From Novosphingobium sp. (GTDB lineage Bacteria; Pseudomonadota; Alphaproteobacteria; Sphingomonadales; Sphingomonadaceae), in contig NZ_JAUYNB010000038.1 in NCBI RefSeq assembly GCF_030699305.1, positions 186,001-250,000 on the forward strand: a stretch of DNA of 64,000 nt. The letters are read 5' to 3'. Position numbers and translations under genes: made by a program. A model generated the notes under the pieces. The model saw only the letters and a program-made list of their open reading frames with translations, did no database searches and was not told where the DNA came from. Positions 38,712-61,051 of the stretch are shown here, one piece after another (within the stretch, counting starts at the first letter, position 1; every line of letters begins with the position of its first letter).

Positions 38712-39120
38712 GGTGCCAGTCTGATGCGAAACGTTCTCTGTCGGTCAAACGACCCCTTACCACTGCAGCCCGTCAGGCCATGAGGTTTTGCCACTCGGCC
38801 AGGGCGGCCGAGCGGCGAAGCTTGGAAGTCTGACGAACGACGAGATGGCGCTCCTGGTTAAAGTGGTTGTACACTGAGCCGTGGGCGGAGGCGAATTTCT
38901 GTAGTGATTTCATCTACCGGAATCGCTGCATGGCTCGCTCTCGCCGTCGGAAAGGGCAGGTCTGAATTCTCCGCCCGATTGTTGGCGTGCCGGCCGACCT
39001 CGCGGTGGGCCTCATTGCCAAGCTCGCGCATCGCGGCAGGATAGGATTTCAGGCCGTCGGTGACAATGGATTCGGCTCTGGCATGGCGCTTCAAGGCCTT
39101 GCGAAGAAACCGCAAAGTCG
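38712..39120 (-). mobile_element. Truncated, frameshifted IS6-family element (transposase C-terminal half)
   Basis: GGTGCCAGTCTGATGCGAAACGTTCTCTG end; TLRFLRKALKRHARAESIVTDGLKSYPAAMRELGNEAHREVGRHANNRAENSDLPF. Confidence 0.85.
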
Positions 39121-39260
39121 CGGGTTTGGCGGGTTTGGCGGGTTTGCGGGGGCGGGGCATGGTCGCACTTGACCCATCGCGCCGCTCCATCGCAAGCGGT
39201 GCAATCCCTCTGACACTGGCTTTCAACTGGATTGTGAGTTCGGTTTGCGCGCACAGGATG

Positions 39261-39277
39261 TGTCCAGACTACGGACA
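39261..39277. promoter_or_regulatory. Palindromic operator candidate, site A
   Basis: TGTCCAGACTACGGACA upstream of TonB receptor gene. Confidence 0.6.
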
Positions 39278-41983: not shown

Positions 41984-42004
41984 TCGAACTGGCTTGAATG
42001 CACC

Positions 42005-42042
42005 AAAAGGGGCGGGGCTTTTTGTGAAGCCCCGCCCCTTTT
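42005..42042 (+). terminator. Rho-independent terminator after TonB receptor gene
   Basis: AAAAGGGGCGGGGCTT - TTTGTG - AAGCCCCGCCCCTTTT, 16-bp perfect stem. Confidence 0.9.
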
Positions 42043-42065
42043 CGTTGCTGACAGAAAGGAACGCC

Positions 42066-43541
42066 ATGCTGGATCGCCGTTTATTCATGGGTGCCGCCCT
42101 GACGAGCGGGCTGCTTGCCTCTGCGTCGGCGCGGGCCGCGACCGCTGCTCCGCCGCCAGACGATGCCATCGCGGTGCTGGTAGCGCATATGCTGAACGCC
42201 CGATTTGAAAACCTGCCCGCGTTTGCTCTGGATACGACCCGAGCGCAATTGCGCGACACGGTTGGCGTTGCGCTGGCGGGCCGGGGCGAGAGCGGGGTGC
42301 GTGAACTGCGCGAGCTCGCGGCCACAATTGGCGGCAAAGGCGAGAGCACCGTCTGGGCCAGCAAGTTGCGCCTGCCCAGCCACGATGCCGCACGAATAAA
42401 CGCGGTGATGGTTCACGCGCTGGAATACGATGACACGTTCGGGCCTGGCTTTCTTCATCCATCGGCGATCACGCTCCCCGCCGCGCTGGCGGTGGCGGAC
42501 ATGGTGGGCAAAGTCAGCGGGCGGGAATTACTGGCTGCGGTCACGTTGGCGAACGACATCGCCTGCCGCCTTTCCATCGCGGGGCAGCCGGGGGTCGATG
42601 GCTTTGCCATCGGCTGGCACAACACGACGCTGATTGGCTACCTCTCATCCGCACTGGTTGCAGGGCGGCTGATGCGACTGAACCGGGACCAGTTAGTCCA
42701 TGCAGCCGGAATCGCGGCACATCAGGCCGCAGGCAATGCGCAGTCGCATATCGATGGTGCGCTGACCAAGCGGATGGGGCCCGGCTTTGCCTCTGCCGCC
42801 GGGGTTCTGGCGGCGCGGCTGGCGGCGCGCGAGGTGACCGGTCCGCGCGGCGTGCTGGAGGGCAGAAAAGGCTGGTTCACCCAGTATCACAAAGGTATTT
42901 ATTCGCGCGATCTGCTGTTGGACGGGCTGGGGAGCGAGTATCCTGGCGCGGCGATGTCGTTCAAACCGTGGCCGTCCTGTCGGGGATCGCATACCTCTGC
43001 CGATGCCGCGCTCCAGATCGCGGCGGTAATGGGGCCGCGCGCGGGCGCGATCACGCGGATCGTGATCCGCAATGGGCCAGCTGAATGGGGCTTTCTGACC
43101 ACACCGATAGAGCGCAAGCGCCACCCTGCCACCACGGTCGAGGCGCAGTTCAGCGTGCCCTGGGTGGTCGCCGCTGCACTCACTGACGGTAAGGTCGGGA
43201 TCGCCCACTTTACCCTGGAAGCACTGCTCCGCGACGATCTGCGGGCCATGGCCGCGCGGATCGAGACGGTGCAGGACGACGGCCTGGCTCACCCATCTGG
43301 CGGGCCAGGGGCAGCGGTGGTCGAAGTGACGTTGCAAGACGGGCAGACCCTGCGCCGCCATGTTGCGGCCGCAAAGGGCGATCCGGACGTGCCGATGAGC
43401 GCGGCGGAAGTGACCGCGAAGTTCGATGACTGTCTGGACTATGCCGGGATCGGACCCGCCCGGCAGGCCCGCTTGCGTGCCCTGCTGAACGGGGTGGATC
43501 GCCTGCCGGACGTATCCCGCCTCACCGCGGCGATGGCTTGA
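42066..43541 (+). CDS. MmgE/PrpD family protein with apparent Tat signal
   Basis: MLDRRLFMGAALTSGLLASASARA leader; ALEYDDTFGPGFLHPSAITLPAALAVADMVGKVSGRELLAAVTLANDIACRLS. Confidence 0.85.
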   Translation: MLDRRLFMGAALTSGLLASASARAATAAPPPDDAIAVLVAHMLNARFENLPAFALDTTRAQLRDTVGVALAGRGESGVRELRELAATIGGKGESTVWASKLRLPSHDAARINAVMVHALEYDDTFGPGFLHPSAITLPAALAVADMVGKVSGRELLAAVTLANDIACRLSIAGQPGVDGFAIGWHNTTLIGYLSSALVAGRLMRLNRDQLVHAAGIAAHQAAGNAQSHIDGALTKRMGPGFASAAGVLAARLAAREVTGPRGVLEGRKGWFTQYHKGIYSRDLLLDGLGSEYPGAAMSFKPWPSCRGSHTSADAALQIAAVMGPRAGAITRIVIRNGPAEWGFLTTPIERKRHPATTVEAQFSVPWVVAAALTDGKVGIAHFTLEALLRDDLRAMAARIETVQDDGLAHPSGGPGAAVVEVTLQDGQTLRRHVAAAKGDPDVPMSAAEVTAKFDDCLDYAGIGPARQARLRALLNGVDRLPDVSRLTAAMA

Positions 43542-43548
43542 TCGCTCC

Positions 43549-44112
43549 CTACACGCCTGCCCAGGGTAGCGGCTTCTTCCATGGGACCATGGTGCGATCC
43601 CAGGTGGAGATGCTGAACCGGCGGAACTTCCATTCCCCGCCGTCCGGCACGCATTCGCAGGTAAAATAGCCTAAGCTGCGCACCCCGCGCGACGCTTTCG
43701 CGGAATTGGCGTTGAAATGGGTAGCATAGGCGTGGACCACGCAGCTTTGTCCGGTGGGGATGAAGCGAAACTGCCCGGCCTCGTGCATCCAGATGTCATC
43801 GCCTTCACGCTCGCGCAGCGCGATCAGCGTGCGGAACCAGCCAAGGATCGCAGCCTTGTCGCGGTAGGCGTTGCCTTTGCCTACGACCAGCGCGTCGACC
43901 GTGAACAGCGCGAGGAATTCATCCTCGTCCGAACAGTCGTAGGCCCAGAGGTAGCGGGTGAACAGATCCTCGATCCCGGCGCGGTCTTCCAGCGTCAGGC
44001 GGCCTTTGCTGCGCCGGGGTTTTGCAGCCGCCGGGGCCAGCGCCGCAGTCGCCGCCGCCCCCAGCCCGGCCAGCGCTAGCCCGCGCCGGCTGACTTTGCC
44101 TGCACCGCTCAT
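43549..44112 (-). CDS. Exported SnoaL-like (NTF2-fold) protein with Tat-like signal
   Basis: SRRGLALAGLGAAATAALAPAAA; LEDRAGIEDLFTRYLWAYDCSDEDEFLALFTVDALVVGKG. Confidence 0.75.
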   Translation of the reverse strand: MSGAGKVSRRGLALAGLGAAATAALAPAAAKPRRSKGRLTLEDRAGIEDLFTRYLWAYDCSDEDEFLALFTVDALVVGKGNAYRDKAAILGWFRTLIALREREGDDIWMHEAGQFRFIPTGQSCVVHAYATHFNANSAKASRGVRSLGYFTCECVPDGGEWKFRRFSISTWDRTMVPWKKPLPWAGV

Positions 44113-44774
44113 GACCGGTCCGCCAGTGCGGGGCGGGCGATGCGCTGAAACCCCAGCATCAGGACGAACGATGCCAGCGGCGGCAGCCAGTCACGCGGCG
44201 GCAAGCGGCGGTCCGCCGAACCCGTGAACCACGATGCAGCCATGATGATGACCATGAGACCTGCGAAGAACAGCCAGATCGGCAGTACGCTGCCGCTGGA
44301 CTCTGCGGTCGGCGCCGGTGCGGGCGCGCTGTCAGGCGCTTCCCACAGCCAGCGTGGCTGATTACGCATATTGAGCATCGATCGATAATAGGCCCCGTAG
44401 CCCAGCAGTACCATGCCGTTGATGACCAGTTCCTGCACCCCGGTGTAATAGTGCCGCGCCCCATGCGTCCCTTCGACCACGATGTTGAGATAGGCGATCA
44501 TCACCGTGATCGGGAACTCCATCACTGCCACCAGCGGGGTGAACCGGTTGACCAGCGCCAGCAGGCCCAATGCAAATTCGATGTATTTCACCAGCGGGTA
44601 AAGTCCGACTTTGTCCAGTTCCGCCATGAAATGCCCGACCGGGGATGCTGGGTTGTAGAAAGCGGATGGTACCCAGCCGAAAAAGATATAGGCCCCGCCC
44701 GAATAGAGCAGGTGACTGGCAAAGAGGATCCGGAAGAAGGTGACGACCTGCCATTGGAACGTTCTCGATTGCAC
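44109..44774 (-). CDS. DoxX-like membrane protein
   Basis: FFRILFASHLLYSGGAYIFFGWVPSAFY...KYIEFALGLLALVNRFTPLVAVMEFPITVMI; GTG start with GGAGAA upstream. Confidence 0.7.
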   Translation of the reverse strand: MQSRTFQWQVVTFFRILFASHLLYSGGAYIFFGWVPSAFYNPASPVGHFMAELDKVGLYPLVKYIEFALGLLALVNRFTPLVAVMEFPITVMIAYLNIVVEGTHGARHYYTGVQELVINGMVLLGYGAYYRSMLNMRNQPRWLWEAPDSAPAPAPTAESSGSVLPIWLFFAGLMVIIMAASWFTGSADRRLPPRDWLPPLASFVLMLGFQRIARPALADRS

Positions 44775-44855
44775 GGCTTCTCCCCTTTTTTTGATCCTCG
44801 TTAGCCCGCGAAGCTGGACAAAGAACTCGTCCGCGCAAAGCACAATGGGTGCGCC

Positions 44856-44870
44856 GTCCGATTTTTGGAC
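44856..44870. promoter_or_regulatory. Palindromic operator candidate, site B
   Basis: GTCCGATTTTTGGAC (followed by A) in divergent intergenic region. Confidence 0.55.
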
Positions 44871-44890
44871 AGCGGCTGATCGGCGGCCTG

Positions 44891-44907
44891 TGTCCGAGAA
44901 ACGGGCA
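44891..44907. promoter_or_regulatory. Degenerate copy of the operator candidate, site B'
   Basis: TGTCCGAGAAACGGGCA, one mismatch in the outer arms. Confidence 0.4.
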
Positions 44908-45020
44908 GCGCCGGGAAAGGCCATTTATCGCCGCGTGGGATTGGTGCTAGGCCTCGCCCCAACAAGGACCGGATGGTCGGCGATGCAGTTTGCAAGCGCA
45001 CCAATGCCGGAGGAGGGGAT

Positions 45021-45455
45021 ATGATCACGGCGAGCCGTCGCAGCCTGAAGCTGTTGTCGATCGGGATCGGGCTGCTGTTCACTGGTGCTGTCTATTACAC
45101 CATGCACAACAACCCGCGCTGGGATTGGACTGCGCCGGGCGTGGGCAAGTTGCCTCGCGATATCGTGGCTGAGTTCATGGATCAGGCCTATACCAAGGGG
45201 CAGGGCGGCACCGCGCAGCAGAGCTATTTCGCCAAGGGCGCGTTCGACAACGCGCCCGCAGCAAAGGACCGCCGCGATGGCGCGCCTGTGCCGCACCAGA
45301 TCCGCCAGGTGATCGCGCAGGGCATGACCGTGGCCGTGATTCACCGCATTGCTCCGGCGCGCGGCGAGCCGGGGGTGGACGTGATCGACGTGTTCACGAT
45401 CAAGGAAGGACGGATTGCGCGGCGTGACCGCTATCCGACCCACTTCACACAGTAA
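45021..45455 (+). CDS. Membrane-anchored SnoaL-like protein
   Basis: N-terminal TM (LKLLSIGIGLLFTGAVYYTM); C-terminal VIDVFTIKEGRIARRDRY typical of SnoaL-like folds. Confidence 0.6.
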   Translation: MITASRRSLKLLSIGIGLLFTGAVYYTMHNNPRWDWTAPGVGKLPRDIVAEFMDQAYTKGQGGTAQQSYFAKGAFDNAPAAKDRRDGAPVPHQIRQVIAQGMTVAVIHRIAPARGEPGVDVIDVFTIKEGRIARRDRYPTHFTQ

Positions 45456-46045
45456 TGGCAGGAGAAGGCCCCGTGGGACTCGACAGCAACACCGGCCCTG
45501 CCAGCGCGGGTGCAGCCGCCGACCGGGTGGAAATCGCGCTGACCGCCGGAACGCTCTGGCGCGGGGTGATCACGCTGCTGCGCCTGTTCCTGGGCGCGTG
45601 GATGCTCAACAGCGGTTACAGCTATTGGGCGCAGGAATTTGGCTGGCCGCCCGCCTTTCCGCAGCCGTTCGGCACGCTGCCCGCATCGAACCAGATGCTG
45701 GTGACGATGGTGGAAGTCGGCCTGTTCGATTTCGTGAAGACGGTCGAAGTGATCGGCGGGCTGTGCCTGATCTTCGGTGTGTTCGTGCCGGCGGCCACGT
45801 TGCTGCTGCTGCCGGTGTCGGCGGTGGTGTTCTATAACGCGGTGTTCCTGAACCTGCGCACCGATCGGCTGTTCAGCCCGAACTACATGGGCGTGTCGTG
45901 CCTTTACATCAACGTGATCGTCGCGCTGGCCTATATCCGGCACTACCTGCCGCTGCTGGCGCTGCATTCGGCGCCGGGCAGCCTGCGCGATCTGGCGGAG
46001 CTGCCGACGGTCCTCAGTAAACCAGACAACAATCCGCACCACTGA
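45455..46045 (+). CDS. DoxX-like membrane protein
   Basis: ITLLRLFLGAWMLNSGYSYWAQEF, four TM segments. Confidence 0.65.
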   Translation: MAGEGPVGLDSNTGPASAGAAADRVEIALTAGTLWRGVITLLRLFLGAWMLNSGYSYWAQEFGWPPAFPQPFGTLPASNQMLVTMVEVGLFDFVKTVEVIGGLCLIFGVFVPAATLLLLPVSAVVFYNAVFLNLRTDRLFSPNYMGVSCLYINVIVALAYIRHYLPLLALHSAPGSLRDLAELPTVLSKPDNNPHH

Positions 46046-46091
46046 CGGGGTCGCACAGCGCACCGCGTCAGGGTCTATGGGGAGAACGGGC

Positions 46092-46568
46092 GTGGCCCAG
46101 AACAAGACGATGTACTACATCATAACGTGGATCCGCCTGTTCTTCGGCGCGCATCTGCTGTTTTCCGGCGGGCGCTACATCCTGACCGGCTATATGCCCG
46201 CCATCCCGGGGATCGGCGGCGAATGGGCGTCAGCCAATGCCGCGCTCGGGCTGTATCAGGCGGTCAAGTACATGGAATTCGTGTTTGGCGTCATGCTGCT
46301 GACCAACCGGTTCGTGCTGCTGGCGCTGATTCTGGAAATGCCCGCCACGGTCAACATCTTCTGGCTGAACACCTTCATCGTCGGCACGCCGCGCCAGCTG
46401 TTCACCGGCCCGCAGGAACTGTTCCTGAACGGCGTGCTGCTGCTGGCTTACAGCGGCTATCTGGGCGCCGCGCTGAGACCCCGGCTGGAGCCGCTGTGGC
46501 TGTGGAATTCACACCGCGCCTACAAGGACAACTATGCGGAGCAAATCCGCGCTGAGGGAGGACTGTGA
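46092..46568 (+). CDS. DoxX-like membrane protein, paralog of 44109..44774
   Basis: IRLFFGAHLLFSGGRYILTGYMPA...KYMEFVFGVMLLTNRFVLLALILEMPATVNIF aligns with the minus-strand paralog. Confidence 0.7.
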   Translation: MAQNKTMYYIITWIRLFFGAHLLFSGGRYILTGYMPAIPGIGGEWASANAALGLYQAVKYMEFVFGVMLLTNRFVLLALILEMPATVNIFWLNTFIVGTPRQLFTGPQELFLNGVLLLAYSGYLGAALRPRLEPLWLWNSHRAYKDNYAEQIRAEGGL

Positions 46569-46750
46569 TGCGCAAGCCTGAATGGATCGCGATCATCGCC
46601 TGCATCGTGCTGAGCCTGACGGTGTTCGTCGGCTCGACCGGGCTGGGTTACGCCGTGTACCGCCCGCTGCGGTATTACGACATCTTCTCGCTGGTGATCG
46701 CCTGGACGGGCCTTGCCTATCACTTGTGGCGCGGTCACCGCGCGGGTTGA
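46568..46750 (+). CDS. Small two-TM membrane protein
   Basis: MRKPEWIAIIACIVLSLTVFVGSTGLGYAVYRPLRYYDIFSLVIAWTGLAYHLWRGHRAG. Confidence 0.5.
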   Translation: MRKPEWIAIIACIVLSLTVFVGSTGLGYAVYRPLRYYDIFSLVIAWTGLAYHLWRGHRAG

Positions 46751-46764
46751 GGGGGAGAACGCCG

Positions 46765-47070
46765 ATGACCATGAAAATCGCCATGACCGCAGCCGGTGCC
46801 GTCCTGCTGTTGGCAGGCTGCAAGGGTGGCGATCTGCCGCCCGAGAACCGCTGCGCGATGTACTGGGATTATTACTACAACGCCGGGCTGGGCAAGCCGC
46901 CAGCCGAGCGGCAGAGCGCGGCGGGGGTTGAGTTCGATGACATTCGCGCGATCGTGAAGGCCGATCCTTCGGACAAGACCGAGGTCTGCCAGAAGATCCT
47001 GAACGATGCCTTCCCCGGCGATCCGGCCTTGCAGGGCGTCACCGGGCCGATCCCGCCCGCGTCCGAGTAA
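46765..47070 (+). CDS. Small lipoprotein
   Basis: MKIAMTAAGAVLLLAGCKGG lipobox. Confidence 0.65.
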   Translation: MTMKIAMTAAGAVLLLAGCKGGDLPPENRCAMYWDYYYNAGLGKPPAERQSAAGVEFDDIRAIVKADPSDKTEVCQKILNDAFPGDPALQGVTGPIPPASE

Positions 47071-47112: not shown

Positions 47113-47129
47113 AATCCGATTTTCGGACA
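47113..47129. promoter_or_regulatory. Palindromic operator candidate, site C
   Basis: AATCCGATTTTCGGACA upstream of extradiol dioxygenase gene. Confidence 0.55.
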
Positions 47130-47164: not shown

Positions 47165-47189
47165 ATTCTCTAGAATGGAGAATCTAGAG
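47165..47189. promoter_or_regulatory. Overlapping inverted repeats with CTAG cores
   Basis: ATTCTC-N7-GAGAAT overlapping CTCTAG-N10-CTAGAG. Confidence 0.45.
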
Positions 47190-47215
47190 TATTTATAAAT
47201 CAGGGAGAAGAAGAG

Positions 47216-48106
47216 ATGATTCGGTCAATGGCTTATCTTGGGCTGACCACGCCGGCTGTGGCCGAATGGCGCGGTTTCGGGTCCGACATTCTGGGGCTTC
47301 ACCTGATTGACGATGGCGCCGATGGCGCGGCGCGGTTCCGCATGGACGATGCCGATTGCCGCCTGTGGGTGCATCCCGGCGCGCAGAACGACATTGCCTA
47401 TATCGGCTGGGCTTTGTCCGGCGAGGCCGAGGCGCTTGCCCTGAAAGCCCGGATCGAGGCGGCGGGGCCAGTGCTGACCAAGGCCAGCGCGGACGAAGCC
47501 GCCGCACGACGGGTTGCGGGCTTTTATTCGTTCACCGATCCGATGGGCTTTCGCCACGAACTGGCTTGGGGTCAGTTTGTTTCCCCCGCCAGCTTCACGC
47601 CGGGCTGGCCGATGAGCGGGTTCAAGACCGGCGATCAGGGCATGGGCCATATCGTCCTGCTGGTGCCGGATCTGGCAGCGGCGGACCGGTTCTACCGCGA
47701 TGTGCTGGGCTTCAACCAGTCGGATCGGATCACCGACGGCGGGCGGGAACTGCTGTTCTATCACTGCAACGGCCGCCACCATTCGCTGGCCATCGGCAGC
47801 CCGGCACCGGGGATGCGCGGCGCGCACCACCTGATGCTGGAAGTCAATTCGCTCGACGATGTCGGCATCGCGGTCGATCGCTGCGCGGAGCTGGACGTGC
47901 CGGTCAGCAAGTCGATCGGGTGTCACACCAACGACCGGATGGTGTCGACCTACATCTTTTCACCGTCGGTCCTGCGGATCGAATACGGCTTTGGCGGGCT
48001 GGCCATCGACGATTTGTGGGAGCCGAAGAGCTACACCCGCACGTCGATCTGGGGGCACAAGGAACTGCGTCCCGACCTGCCGCCCGCGATGATCGTCGGA
48101 AACTGA
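47216..48106 (+). CDS. Type I extradiol dioxygenase (two-domain VOC, BphC/HsaC-like)
   Basis: GHIVLLVPDLAAADRFYRDVLGFNQSDRI, GAHHLMLEVNSLDDVGIAVDRC, LRIEYGFGG. Confidence 0.88.
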   Translation: MIRSMAYLGLTTPAVAEWRGFGSDILGLHLIDDGADGAARFRMDDADCRLWVHPGAQNDIAYIGWALSGEAEALALKARIEAAGPVLTKASADEAAARRVAGFYSFTDPMGFRHELAWGQFVSPASFTPGWPMSGFKTGDQGMGHIVLLVPDLAAADRFYRDVLGFNQSDRITDGGRELLFYHCNGRHHSLAIGSPAPGMRGAHHLMLEVNSLDDVGIAVDRCAELDVPVSKSIGCHTNDRMVSTYIFSPSVLRIEYGFGGLAIDDLWEPKSYTRTSIWGHKELRPDLPPAMIVGN

Positions 48107-56954: not shown

Positions 56955-56971
56955 CGTCCGTAGTTTGGACA
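56955..56971. promoter_or_regulatory. Palindromic operator candidate, site D
   Basis: CGTCCGTAGTTTGGACA upstream of SDR-Rieske-ACAD-CaiB operon. Confidence 0.55.
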
Positions 56972-56987: not shown

Positions 56988-58340
56988 TCAGGCCCCGGGC
57001 TTGCCGCCGTTCGGTTCGGTCGTGGTCACGGCCAGCGTCTTGCGGAAGCTTTCCGGGGCGAACAGGATCGCCACGATCGAGATCACGCAGAGCGCGATGA
57101 AGAACAGGCCGACCTTGGTGGGATCGGTCCCGCCGCCGCGCATCAGCAGCCAGGTGGCGACCAGCGGGGCGAACCCGGCGCTGATCGTGGAGCCGACCTG
57201 GAACGTCACCGCCATGCCGCTGTAGCGGATGTCGGCGGCGAACTTTTCGCCCAGCCATGCGCTCAGCGGGCCGCCCATCATCGCGTGGATCACCGGGTTG
57301 GCCAGCGCCAGCGCCAGCAGCAGCGCCCAGGGGCTGCCCATTGTCAGCAGGTGGAAGATCGGGAAGATCAGGACCATGCCGGTGACCGCCCCGGCCAGCA
57401 TCACCGGCTTGCGCCCGATCCGGTCGGACAGGATCGCAAAGGCGGGGATCGCGAAGATATGAACCACGTTGACCAGCGTCAGCAGCCCCAGCGCGGTCGA
57501 TTGCGCATGGCCGCCAACGTTGATCGCGAAGTTGATCATGAAGGTGGCGGTCAGAGTGGTCATCGCCAGACAGGCCAGACTGCCCAGCACGCCGTTAAGC
57601 AGCGGCCCGGGATAGCACCGCAGCACGACCAGCAGCGGAATTTCGCGTTTTTGCTGGGGCTCGGCCTTGCGCGCTTCCTGCATCGCCAGAAAGTCTGGCG
57701 TTTCCTCCACCGAACTACGCAGCCATGCGGCCAGCACGACCAGCACCGCGCTGAGCAGAAAGGGTATGCGCCAGCCCCAGGTCAGGAACTGGTCCTGCTC
57801 CATCGCGGCAAACGGCATCAGCGCCAGCGTGGCCATGACCGCGCCCGACGGTGCGCCCGATCCGACGATCGAGGCAGCGAACCCGCGCGATTTCTTGCCC
57901 GCGTGCTCCATCGACAGCAACGTGGCCCCGGCCCATTCGCCGCCGACGGCAAAGCCCTGAACCAGCCGCAGCGCGATCAGCGCCAGCGGCGCGGCCACCC
58001 CGATCATGCTGTAGGACGGCAGCAGGCCCATCAGGAAGCTGGACACGCCCATCAGGTAGAGCGTTACCATCAGCATTTTCTTGCGGCCGATCCGGTCGCC
58101 GTAATGGCCGAAGAAGATCGCGCCGAGGGGGCGGGCGACATAGCCGACCGCCAGCGTGGCGAACGACGCCAGCGTGGCGACTTTCGGATCGAGCGCGAAA
58201 AAGACCTTCGGGAACACCAGCGTTGCGGCGATGCCATAGAGCAGGAAGTCATAGTATTCGACCGCCGAGCCAAGATAGCTCGACCACATGGCGCGGCGGC
58301 GCATGACCGATGCCTGCGGCAGATCTGCCGGTTGCGTCAT
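56988..58340 (-). CDS. MFS transporter (metabolite:H+ symporter type)
   Basis: YYDFLLYGIAATLVFPKVFF, RPLGAIFFGHYGDRIGRKKMLMVTL, RLVQGFAVGGEWAGATLLSMEHA. Confidence 0.92.
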   Translation of the reverse strand: MTQPADLPQASVMRRRAMWSSYLGSAVEYYDFLLYGIAATLVFPKVFFALDPKVATLASFATLAVGYVARPLGAIFFGHYGDRIGRKKMLMVTLYLMGVSSFLMGLLPSYSMIGVAAPLALIALRLVQGFAVGGEWAGATLLSMEHAGKKSRGFAASIVGSGAPSGAVMATLALMPFAAMEQDQFLTWGWRIPFLLSAVLVVLAAWLRSSVEETPDFLAMQEARKAEPQQKREIPLLVVLRCYPGPLLNGVLGSLACLAMTTLTATFMINFAINVGGHAQSTALGLLTLVNVVHIFAIPAFAILSDRIGRKPVMLAGAVTGMVLIFPIFHLLTMGSPWALLLALALANPVIHAMMGGPLSAWLGEKFAADIRYSGMAVTFQVGSTISAGFAPLVATWLLMRGGGTDPTKVGLFFIALCVISIVAILFAPESFRKTLAVTTTEPNGGKPGA

Positions 58341-58545: not shown

Positions 58546-58562
58546 CGTCCGAACTACGGACA
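58546..58562. promoter_or_regulatory. Palindromic operator candidate, site E
   Basis: CGTCCGAACTACGGACA 21 bp before meta-cleavage hydrolase start. Confidence 0.6.
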
Positions 58563-59426: not shown

Positions 59427-59574
59427 ACTGTTCGGCCGATGCGGGTCGGTGCTGCCGCGACCACAAAATGCAGGCGCGCATCATCGCCGGGGTCATAGTA
59501 TGGTGCGCGCCTGGGTCTTGCAGGCCACCTAAAAAAGGCCCTTGAACAGGGGCACCACGGGAGAGGATGGGGAG

Positions 59575-60333
59575 ATGGCGATTGACGGGCGGCTGCTGGC
59601 AGTCATCGAATCGATCAACGATCTGGGAATCTGCACGGTCGTGGATTTGCACCGGGCAACCGGCATTTCGCGCCCGGCGGTGCACCGGATTATCGATAAC
59701 CTGTGCAGTTTTGGCTATATCGAGCGGGTCGATGGACACAGTTCGGTGCGATTGACCTCGCAGATCCTGTCGCTGAGCGCCGGATACAAGCCCGAACACC
59801 GGATGGCCGAACAGGCTATGCCGGTGCTGCAACAATTGCAGCAGCGCATCCGCTGGCCCCACACCTTTTCCACGCCTGAAACCGACATGATGGTCATTCA
59901 GGCGACCACCCGCCACCACAACCCGTTCGTGTTCGACCGGGGGCGGACCGGGCTGCGCCTGCCGATCCTGTCGACCGCCACAGGCTGTGTCTATCTGGCG
60001 CACTGCGGGGTAGATGAGCGCGAGGCGATCCTGTCGCGCCTGCAATCGCACCAGTTGCGCGATGAGACGTTTGACGAGACATTCGAGGAAATGCTGAACG
60101 CCGCGCGCGACCGGATCGCGATCGCAGCCGAAAAAGGCTATGCCCTGCGTTCGGGCGGCGAGCCTGAGCGAACGACCACCATCGCCGTGCCGGTCATCGT
60201 CTTTTCGACGGCGGTGGGGGCGCTATGCACATCGTTCCCGACCTCTGCCATGGCGCTGGAGGAAGCCTGCGCCAAGTATGTGCCCGCATTGCGCAGCGCT
60301 GCAGAAAGCATCGCCGCTCTGTTCGAAAAATAG
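59575..60333 (+). CDS. IclR-family transcriptional regulator
   Basis: LLAVIESINDLGICTVVDLHRATGISRPAVHRIIDNLCSFGYIERVDGHSSVRLTSQIL. Confidence 0.9.
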   Translation: MAIDGRLLAVIESINDLGICTVVDLHRATGISRPAVHRIIDNLCSFGYIERVDGHSSVRLTSQILSLSAGYKPEHRMAEQAMPVLQQLQQRIRWPHTFSTPETDMMVIQATTRHHNPFVFDRGRTGLRLPILSTATGCVYLAHCGVDEREAILSRLQSHQLRDETFDETFEEMLNAARDRIAIAAEKGYALRSGGEPERTTTIAVPVIVFSTAVGALCTSFPTSAMALEEACAKYVPALRSAAESIAALFEK

Positions 60334-60346
60334 GGACTCGGCAGGA

Positions 60347-60994
60347 TCAGAAAGTGCCAGGGGCCGCTTCTGCGAGTGCAATCAAGCTTATTCCTGCCAT
60401 TCGCAAGTAGCCTGGAAGGTGATCGCCTGACGCGTTCATGATCAGGTTTCCGTCCGCGCAGACCAGCGTGAACTTACCCATCTGAAAGGCGCGGTCCGGG
60501 CAGCGGGTCTGCACGTCGGCGGGCAGGGTCTGGCGATACCACGCGGTATATTCGTCCATCACCGCTTTGCGCAGATCGAGAAACCGCTGGCGCGAGATTT
60601 GCTCGCGAACCGACTGGTCGACGCTGAGAATTACACCCAACCGCCAGAAGTCCTGGGTGATCAGTGCTTCGTTTTCAGGAGCGCTGCAATAGATCCGTTC
60701 CAGATGCTGGCGTGTTGTTTCCCCCGCCAGCGGGCGGCGCTTGCGATGGAAGCCTTCCAGCCATTCACGGCTCTGGTCCATCAGTGAGGCAAACAGGATG
60801 TCCTTGCTTTCGAAATGCCAATAGACGCTTCCGGTTGGCAATTGTGCTTTCAGCGAGACGCGTGGAATGGTCGTGCCCTGATAGCCGTATTCCTGAGCGA
60901 CCTGGAGCGTTGCTTCGAGGATCTTTTGCCGGTTGGCGGCAGACGTGCGATGCTCCCCGCGCGGTCGCTCCCGCTTTTTTGCTTCTGCGTCCAT
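60347..60994 (-). CDS. TetR-family transcriptional regulator
   Basis: NRQKILEATLQVAQEYGYQGTTIPRVSLKAQLPTGSVYWHFESKDILFASLM. Confidence 0.9.
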   Translation of the reverse strand: MDAEAKKRERPRGEHRTSAANRQKILEATLQVAQEYGYQGTTIPRVSLKAQLPTGSVYWHFESKDILFASLMDQSREWLEGFHRKRRPLAGETTRQHLERIYCSAPENEALITQDFWRLGVILSVDQSVREQISRQRFLDLRKAVMDEYTAWYRQTLPADVQTRCPDRAFQMGKFTLVCADGNLIMNASGDHLPGYLRMAGISLIALAEAAPGTF

Positions 60995-61033
60995 TTGCAA
61001 CTCCCTCGACTGTCGCCGTATTACTGTGCTGCT

Positions 61034-61051
61034 TTGCCATGGCAATGGCAA
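61034..61051. promoter_or_regulatory. Candidate TetR autoregulatory operator
   Basis: TTGCCATGGCAATGGCAA containing 12-bp palindrome TTGCCATGGCAA upstream of the TetR gene. Confidence 0.4.

Follow-up and report, generated by a model that had tools for sequence, protein, structure and literature searches.

A conserved envelope gene module with a predicted exported MmgE/PrpD-family enzyme in aromatic catabolic clusters of Novosphingobium and other Proteobacteria

Background

Why should a gene cluster for the aerobic breakdown of aromatic compounds carry, among its operons, a compact set of genes for membrane and exported proteins? The question is raised by positions 43549-47070 of a 64,000-nucleotide stretch of a Novosphingobium genome (G000:C8:186001-250000, genome of 3.36 Mb), the whole of which is called the window in the current publication. 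In the customary scheme of aerobic aromatic-acid breakdown, the compound is transported into the cell and then attacked by cytoplasmic enzymes. An initial annotation had described seven open reading frames (ORFs) of this region as an envelope set sharing the operator of the surrounding catabolic genes, and had proposed it as the best candidate for an undescribed system in the window; all seven, named A to G below, were found at the expected coordinates by an ORF check of the window.

The present analysis indicates a conserved core of four genes, C-D-E-F, accompanied in most loci by a gene for an MmgE/PrpD-family enzyme (PrpD below) predicted to be exported by twin-arginine translocation (Tat). 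Whether C-D-E-F and PrpD constitute an accessory module of one aromatic pathway, acting at the periplasmic face of the inner membrane, is a proposition to which we give even chances. The open-access literature, searched for DoxX together with SnoaL, Rieske, TonB, MmgE or aromatic clusters, returned nothing describing the module, and the claim of novelty reaches as far as that library: each protein fold is already known, while no account was found of their combination, of the E-F unit or of the exported PrpD.

Results and discussion

A four-gene core shared by Alpha- and Betaproteobacteria

The genes of the locus, with likely starts revised to 45021 for C and about 44780 for B, are the following.

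41994..43541, plus strand: MmgE/PrpD-family enzyme, predicted Tat-exported (Pfam MmgE_PrpD_N/C; coordinates from the listed ORF start, the likely start being residue 25 of that ORF, MLDRRLF...)
43549..44112, minus strand: A, SnoaL_4-like (Pfam), predicted exported, with a twin-arginine motif, sphingomonads only
44109..44780, minus strand: B, DoxX-like protein of four helices and, at the C-terminus, a two-helix tail resembling F (profile comparison, model, paralogy to E)
45021..45455, plus strand: C, SnoaL/NTF2-like by predicted fold, with an N-terminal transmembrane helix as its anchor, core (20/21 loci)
45455..46045, plus strand: D, DoxX protein (Pfam), core (20/21 loci)
46077..46568, plus strand: E, DoxX-like four-helix protein (similarity to relatives, paralogy to B), core
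46568..46750, plus strand: F, 60-aa two-helix protein with the loop GSTGLxYxxxRPxRxxD, core (21/21 loci, fused to E in Comamonas)
46765..47070, plus strand: G, small lipoprotein (lipobox by eye), sphingomonads only

A scan with E as query over 85,462 species, each represented by a single genome, relying on exact peptide patterns and therefore an undercount, retrieved 21 related loci in Alpha- and Betaproteobacteria. The neighbourhood is thus conserved outside the strain, a point on which the initial annotation had staked its proposal in advance. Identity of E reaches 84-94% in three Novosphingobium and two Sphingomonas, 64-72% in Massilia, Bordetella, Comamonas, Advenella and other Alcaligenaceae, and 54-66% in Cupriavidus. 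E is present in the 21 loci by construction; F accompanies it in all of them, C and D in 20, the sole locus devoid of both being one where the contig ends inside E, and PrpD in 16. A and G are confined to the five sphingomonad loci. B, counted only from full-length matches with the two-helix tail since loose-threshold B-like scores include E paralogs, was found in the three Novosphingobium loci and in Comamonas. As judged from these gene contents, the core is C-D-E-F, with a predicted exported PrpD adjacent in 16 of the 21 loci, and A and G are sphingomonad additions. The idea of a conserved envelope module tied to a catabolic regulon is therefore retained, although A and G, counted there along with B as equal members, are lineage-specific; the functional unit likely reaches upstream to PrpD (41994-43541), which the initial annotation had missed.

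The order of the genes is rearranged between lineages, so that recent copying alone does not account for their linkage. A variant arrangement occurs in Cupriavidus, where C-D are followed by three E-like genes, each with an F-like gene after it. The module is rare in the sampled genomes: in the family of the window, a further 300 genomes yielded weaker relatives only, in six genomes (best identity 47%), and among 399 genomes of the order to which Bordetella hinzii belongs F turned up in two, the search centre included. The window's own genome encodes three E-like proteins in total, all at this locus, and a single copy of C, and a plasmid collection queried with E gave no match.

A common predicted operator

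The pattern TCCGN6GGACA, already thought to be common to the module and the cluster, has six occurrences in the window where 0.9 would be expected, a count reached by none of 100 shuffles. Five of the six predicted sites precede operon starts, that of C-D-E-F included, and the sixth (62748) lies inside a gene. The five are:

39261..39275, minus strand: before the TonB receptor-PrpD operon
44857..44871, plus strand: TCCGATTTTTGGACA, between B and C, before C-D-E-F-G
47115..47129, plus strand: TCCGATTTTCGGACA, before the operon of the extradiol dioxygenase
56957..56971, plus strand: before the operon of short-chain dehydrogenase/reductase (SDR), Rieske, acyl-CoA dehydrogenase and CoA transferase genes
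58548..58562, plus strand: between divergent genes for a major facilitator superfamily (MFS) transporter and a hydrolase

Related dyads with a changed spacer are found upstream of C and of BphC in three other loci (L025-L027), and genes of the IclR (59542-60333) and TetR (60347-61051) types lie in the window. A second conserved element, TCTAGAATGG[AC]GAATCTAGAGTA, is present at 47165-47195 of the window and upstream of BphC in L025-L029 (Sphingomonas variants); it is likely the site of another regulator.

The putatively exported MmgE/PrpD enzyme

The PrpD of the window passes the Pfam cut-off of 32.1 bits with both its N and C domains (190 and 113 bits) and remains far below the equivalog models of 2-methylcitrate dehydratase (50.7 vs 950 and 29.7 vs 575 bits). 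A twin arginine followed by a hydrophobic stretch is present in all 19 PrpD sequences of these clusters, and in the best-matching plasmid-borne relatives the alignment begins only at about residue 65. The active-site residues named for Bacillus subtilis IRG1, where the substrate docks, are D91, H102, H151, K200, K266 and C271 (PMC7347537). According to a family sequence alignment made without a structure, the equivalents of D91, H102, K200, K266 and C271 are D146/D147, H155, K259, K324 and C329, invariant in the 19 PrpD, and that of H151 is residue 209, a histidine in 8 and an aspartate in 11. The Tat-exported PrpD (window 41994-43541, L025-L040) accordingly split into two subfamilies by H or D at this residue, and Bordetella possesses one copy of each kind. 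In the loci of Massilia, Bordetella, Comamonas and Alcaligenaceae, PrpD adjoins E-F, and this putatively exported protein is the clearest enzyme of the module.

DoxX-like proteins and the E-F unit

The three proteins that the initial annotation called DoxX-like are rightly so named, although only D passes the DoxX cut-off (PF07681; 25.4 vs 23.6), B (16.9) and E (11.2) being below it. The paralogy claimed for two of them is borne out, B and E sharing 40% identity over 144 aa (E-value 3e-31). The structural model of B, with a moderate overall predicted local distance difference test score (pLDDT 74), comprises four helices plus two, those at 8-34, 60-76, 81-103 and 111-136 having a pLDDT of about 90 in the core and forming a predicted four-helix bundle. 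Four polar residues of E (K64, E67, E114 and N118) are invariant, and the E/B profile matched no sequence among solved structures. Two assignments were rejected: D as the HvfX Cu-RiPP maturation protein (NF050144; 18.3 vs a curated cut-off of 80), and B as MrpD, the weak matches being judged hydrophobic background.

F, with its two hydrophobic stretches, and G, whose lipobox LLLAGC was read by eye, agree with the small membrane protein and the lipoprotein initially announced; neither has a family in Pfam, and F was matched by no library. F lies directly 3' of E in every locus and resembles the two-helix tails of B-type proteins in profile comparison (E about 1e-4, same register). In Comamonas sp. 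NoAH, a single ORF of 216 aa (L063:10329-10979) encodes an E part (151 aa, 61% identical to E of the window) and, after it, an F part (48 aa, 44% identical to F of the window) with the loop GSTGLFYAEYRPIRNRD. On these sequence comparisons E and F form one unit, either fused or split, the conserved loops of which would face the periplasm by the positive-inside rule applied by eye. The fused Comamonas gene is located beside an apparent gatB, outside the catabolic cluster. A 'PRWxW' motif shared by C, after its helix, and by E and B, after helix 4, was considered as a common interface and left unused, the same rule placing its copies on opposite membrane faces.

More distant DoxX-like genes are found in other genomes of the same family (L016-L022). 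They lack an accompanying F or PrpD and in several loci stand beside Rieske and HsaA-like oxygenases; proteins of the DoxX-like type may be a wider theme of aromatic clusters.

SnoaL-like proteins A and C

Two SnoaL-like proteins had been announced and both are confirmed, by different means. A passes Pfam SnoaL_4 (48.7 bits vs a cut-off of 24) and has R9 and R10 together with Y54, D59, H110 and R145 invariant in 9 homologs, and its sequence search against solved structures gave no match. C scores below the SnoaL_2 cut-off (21 vs 27), and its predicted fold combines one transmembrane helix with an NTF2/SnoaL alpha+beta cone (Foldseek E down to 6e-5).

Catabolic neighbourhood

Around the module the loci share genes for an SDR, a Rieske oxygenase, an acyl-CoA dehydrogenase, a CoA transferase, a gentisate-type dioxygenase and an FAA hydrolase, with HsaA- and BphC-like enzymes, an alpha/beta hydrolase and an MFS transporter, the latter present in all eleven Massilia, Bordetella, Comamonas and Alcaligenaceae loci and at 56988-58340 of the window. 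Hydratase, aldehyde dehydrogenase and aldolase neighbours were named by sequence resemblance, by eye; an aldolase homolog lies about 115 kb upstream of the left end of the window, on the same contig. One pathway neighbour matches only NMT1 in Pfam and is, we presume, akin to 4,5-dihydroxyphthalate decarboxylase. A porin gene accompanies them in Betaproteobacteria and a TonB receptor gene in sphingomonads. A DctP-type solute-binding protein is encoded at L039:3697-4785 and in eight other loci, with no genes of a tripartite ATP-independent periplasmic (TRAP) permease seen nearby. At the left edge of the cluster, the window contains the remnant of an IS6/IS240-type transposase (DDE_Tnp_IS240; 38858-39226, minus strand). 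The combination of Rieske, decarboxylase, gentisate-type and HsaA/BphC-type enzymes suggests a multi-ring or substituted aromatic acid as the substrate.

Proposed role and alternatives

In the accessory module that we propose, the substrate would reach the periplasm through the TonB receptor in sphingomonads or the porin in Betaproteobacteria, where the Tat-exported PrpD, the anchored C and, in sphingomonads, the exported A would alter it or an early intermediate. The PrpD family dehydrates, epimerises or decarboxylates carboxylic acids, with a lyase, isomerase or decarboxylase fold, and our first choice is for this reason a step of this type that acts on the substrate or on an early intermediate. 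D, the E-F unit and, in the loci that have it, B would make up the membrane part, holding or supporting this periplasmic chemistry, and the product would then be imported by the MFS transporter. The proposal builds on the conservation, E-F fusion, co-inheritance, common predicted operator, Tat motifs and kept active-site residues documented here from sequence; we infer the topology, the physical association of the parts, the order of the steps and their chemistry. The occurrence of the module with an aromatic pathway in two distant bacterial groups suggests an unrecognised pathway step outside the cytoplasm. Its fuller form, a so far undescribed extracytoplasmic stage of aerobic aromatic catabolism in which a DoxX-like and E-F membrane assembly performs or supports lyase/isomerase chemistry of exported PrpD and SnoaL-like proteins before uptake, is put forward only tentatively.

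Retention of the parts without linkage bears on this proposal. In the genome G1120, E-F lies near 1.18 Mb, and C, D, two PrpD and the pathway near 3.72-3.75 Mb, about 2.5 Mb apart. Full-length C and E-F co-occur in the same 2 of 251 genomes of its family, one of the two, G595, being the sample centre, which reduces the independent coincidence to one genome in 250; two further C matches among the 251 concern the generic SnoaL part only. A B-like frame with one internal TGA, at G1120:C1:1859904-1860524, may be a decayed copy.

This small number of independent genomes weighs against the proposed role, as do three other observations. The Cupriavidus stretch examined has C-D-E-F without PrpD, an MR_MLE (mandelate-racemase-family) enzyme and a KSTD-like flavoprotein being present instead, which means that PrpD is no fixed partner. 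The second E-F of Comamonas, which is fused, adjoins housekeeping genes. Finally, the homologs of C display no obvious conserved catalytic His/Asp pair, and C may consequently bind rather than catalyse.

The main rival is quinone redox coupling, in which the DoxX-like proteins bind, within the membrane, quinone or a quinol-like intermediate and either relay electrons released by an exported dehydrogenation into the respiratory chain or guard the cell against autoxidising catechols and hydroquinones that the pathway produces. DoxX relatives have links to thiosulfate:quinone oxidoreductase, to the B. subtilis operons catDE and mhqNOP, which quinones induce, and to ring-cleaving dioxygenases. The pathway itself has catechol- and gentisate-type ring-cleaving enzymes, the invariant polar residues of E would suit such a role, and DoxX of Mycobacterium tuberculosis MRC has been linked to an oxidoreductase complex (summarised in PMC10943396). 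Fold matches to GGCX, the vitamin K carboxylase, point the same way but are weak and not significant (E 6.5-8.2), and no haem, flavin or metal motif was recognised in C-G. We also know of no redox chemistry for the PrpD and SnoaL folds, and we regard this explanation as rather unlikely.

Uptake and assembly come next. D, E-F and C could be an unrecognised inner-membrane permease or substrate-handing system, every part being predicted membrane or periplasmic and the module sitting with a receptor, a porin and a DctP that lacks a visible adjacent TRAP permease. However, an MFS transporter is already encoded in the clusters, no DoxX relative is to our knowledge an established transporter, and the PrpD enzyme would be left unexplained, all of which makes an uptake function improbable. 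Alternatively, E-F and D could fold or hold PrpD, the transporter and the receptor, the top fold match of the B model being NACHO/TMEM35A, a receptor assembly factor (Foldseek probability 0.96, TM 0.65 by target, E 0.97). This E-value is not significant, the model is of the moderate quality given above and the match reflects a common four-helix fold, not a role; we deem an assembly or stability factor distinctly improbable. That the genes merely travel with the catabolic cluster, without a part in the pathway, is very hard to believe given their conservation across two classes in shuffled order, the retention of E-F when unlinked in G1120 and the predicted operator they share with the pathway operons.

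If the proposed module is real, a periplasmic step would be added to aerobic aromatic-acid breakdown, a function would be given to DoxX-like proteins and to the two-helix F, which no family library recognises, and the MmgE/PrpD family would be extended beyond the cytoplasm. The module is small and occurs in cultivated genera (Novosphingobium, Sphingomonas, Massilia, Comamonas and Cupriavidus), which makes it directly testable.

Comparison with known systems

The neighbouring enzymes resemble those of HsaA/HsaC-type and gentisate-type pathways, scoring on the HsaA, BphC/HsaC and gentisate 1,2-dioxygenase models. Unlike in those pathways, all scores are below the NCBIfam equivalog cut-offs (for the neighbour at 47216-48106, 262 vs 366 for HsaC and 212.5 vs 450 for BphC), and the substrate may therefore differ; no envelope module is described with them in the papers found. 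With SnoaL/NTF2-like proteins such as limonene epoxide hydrolase and ketosteroid isomerase, C shares the predicted fold and A the SnoaL_4 family, but C has a membrane anchor and a conserved NPRW...PGxGKLPR linker and A is predicted to be Tat exported. The PrpD of the window has both Pfam domains and the active-site positions of the MmgE/PrpD family (2-methylcitrate dehydratase, IDS epimerase 2hp3 and IRG1 7bra). It differs from this family by the Tat signal found throughout the cluster PrpD and by the two residue-209 subfamilies; we know of no characterised member exported via Tat. Lastly, the DoxX family (DoxX/DoxD, DoxX of the M. tuberculosis MRC, and CatD and MhqP of B. subtilis) likewise consists of four-helix membrane proteins, and D falls within its cut-off, whereas E and B do not and E is paired with, or fused to, the two-helix protein F.

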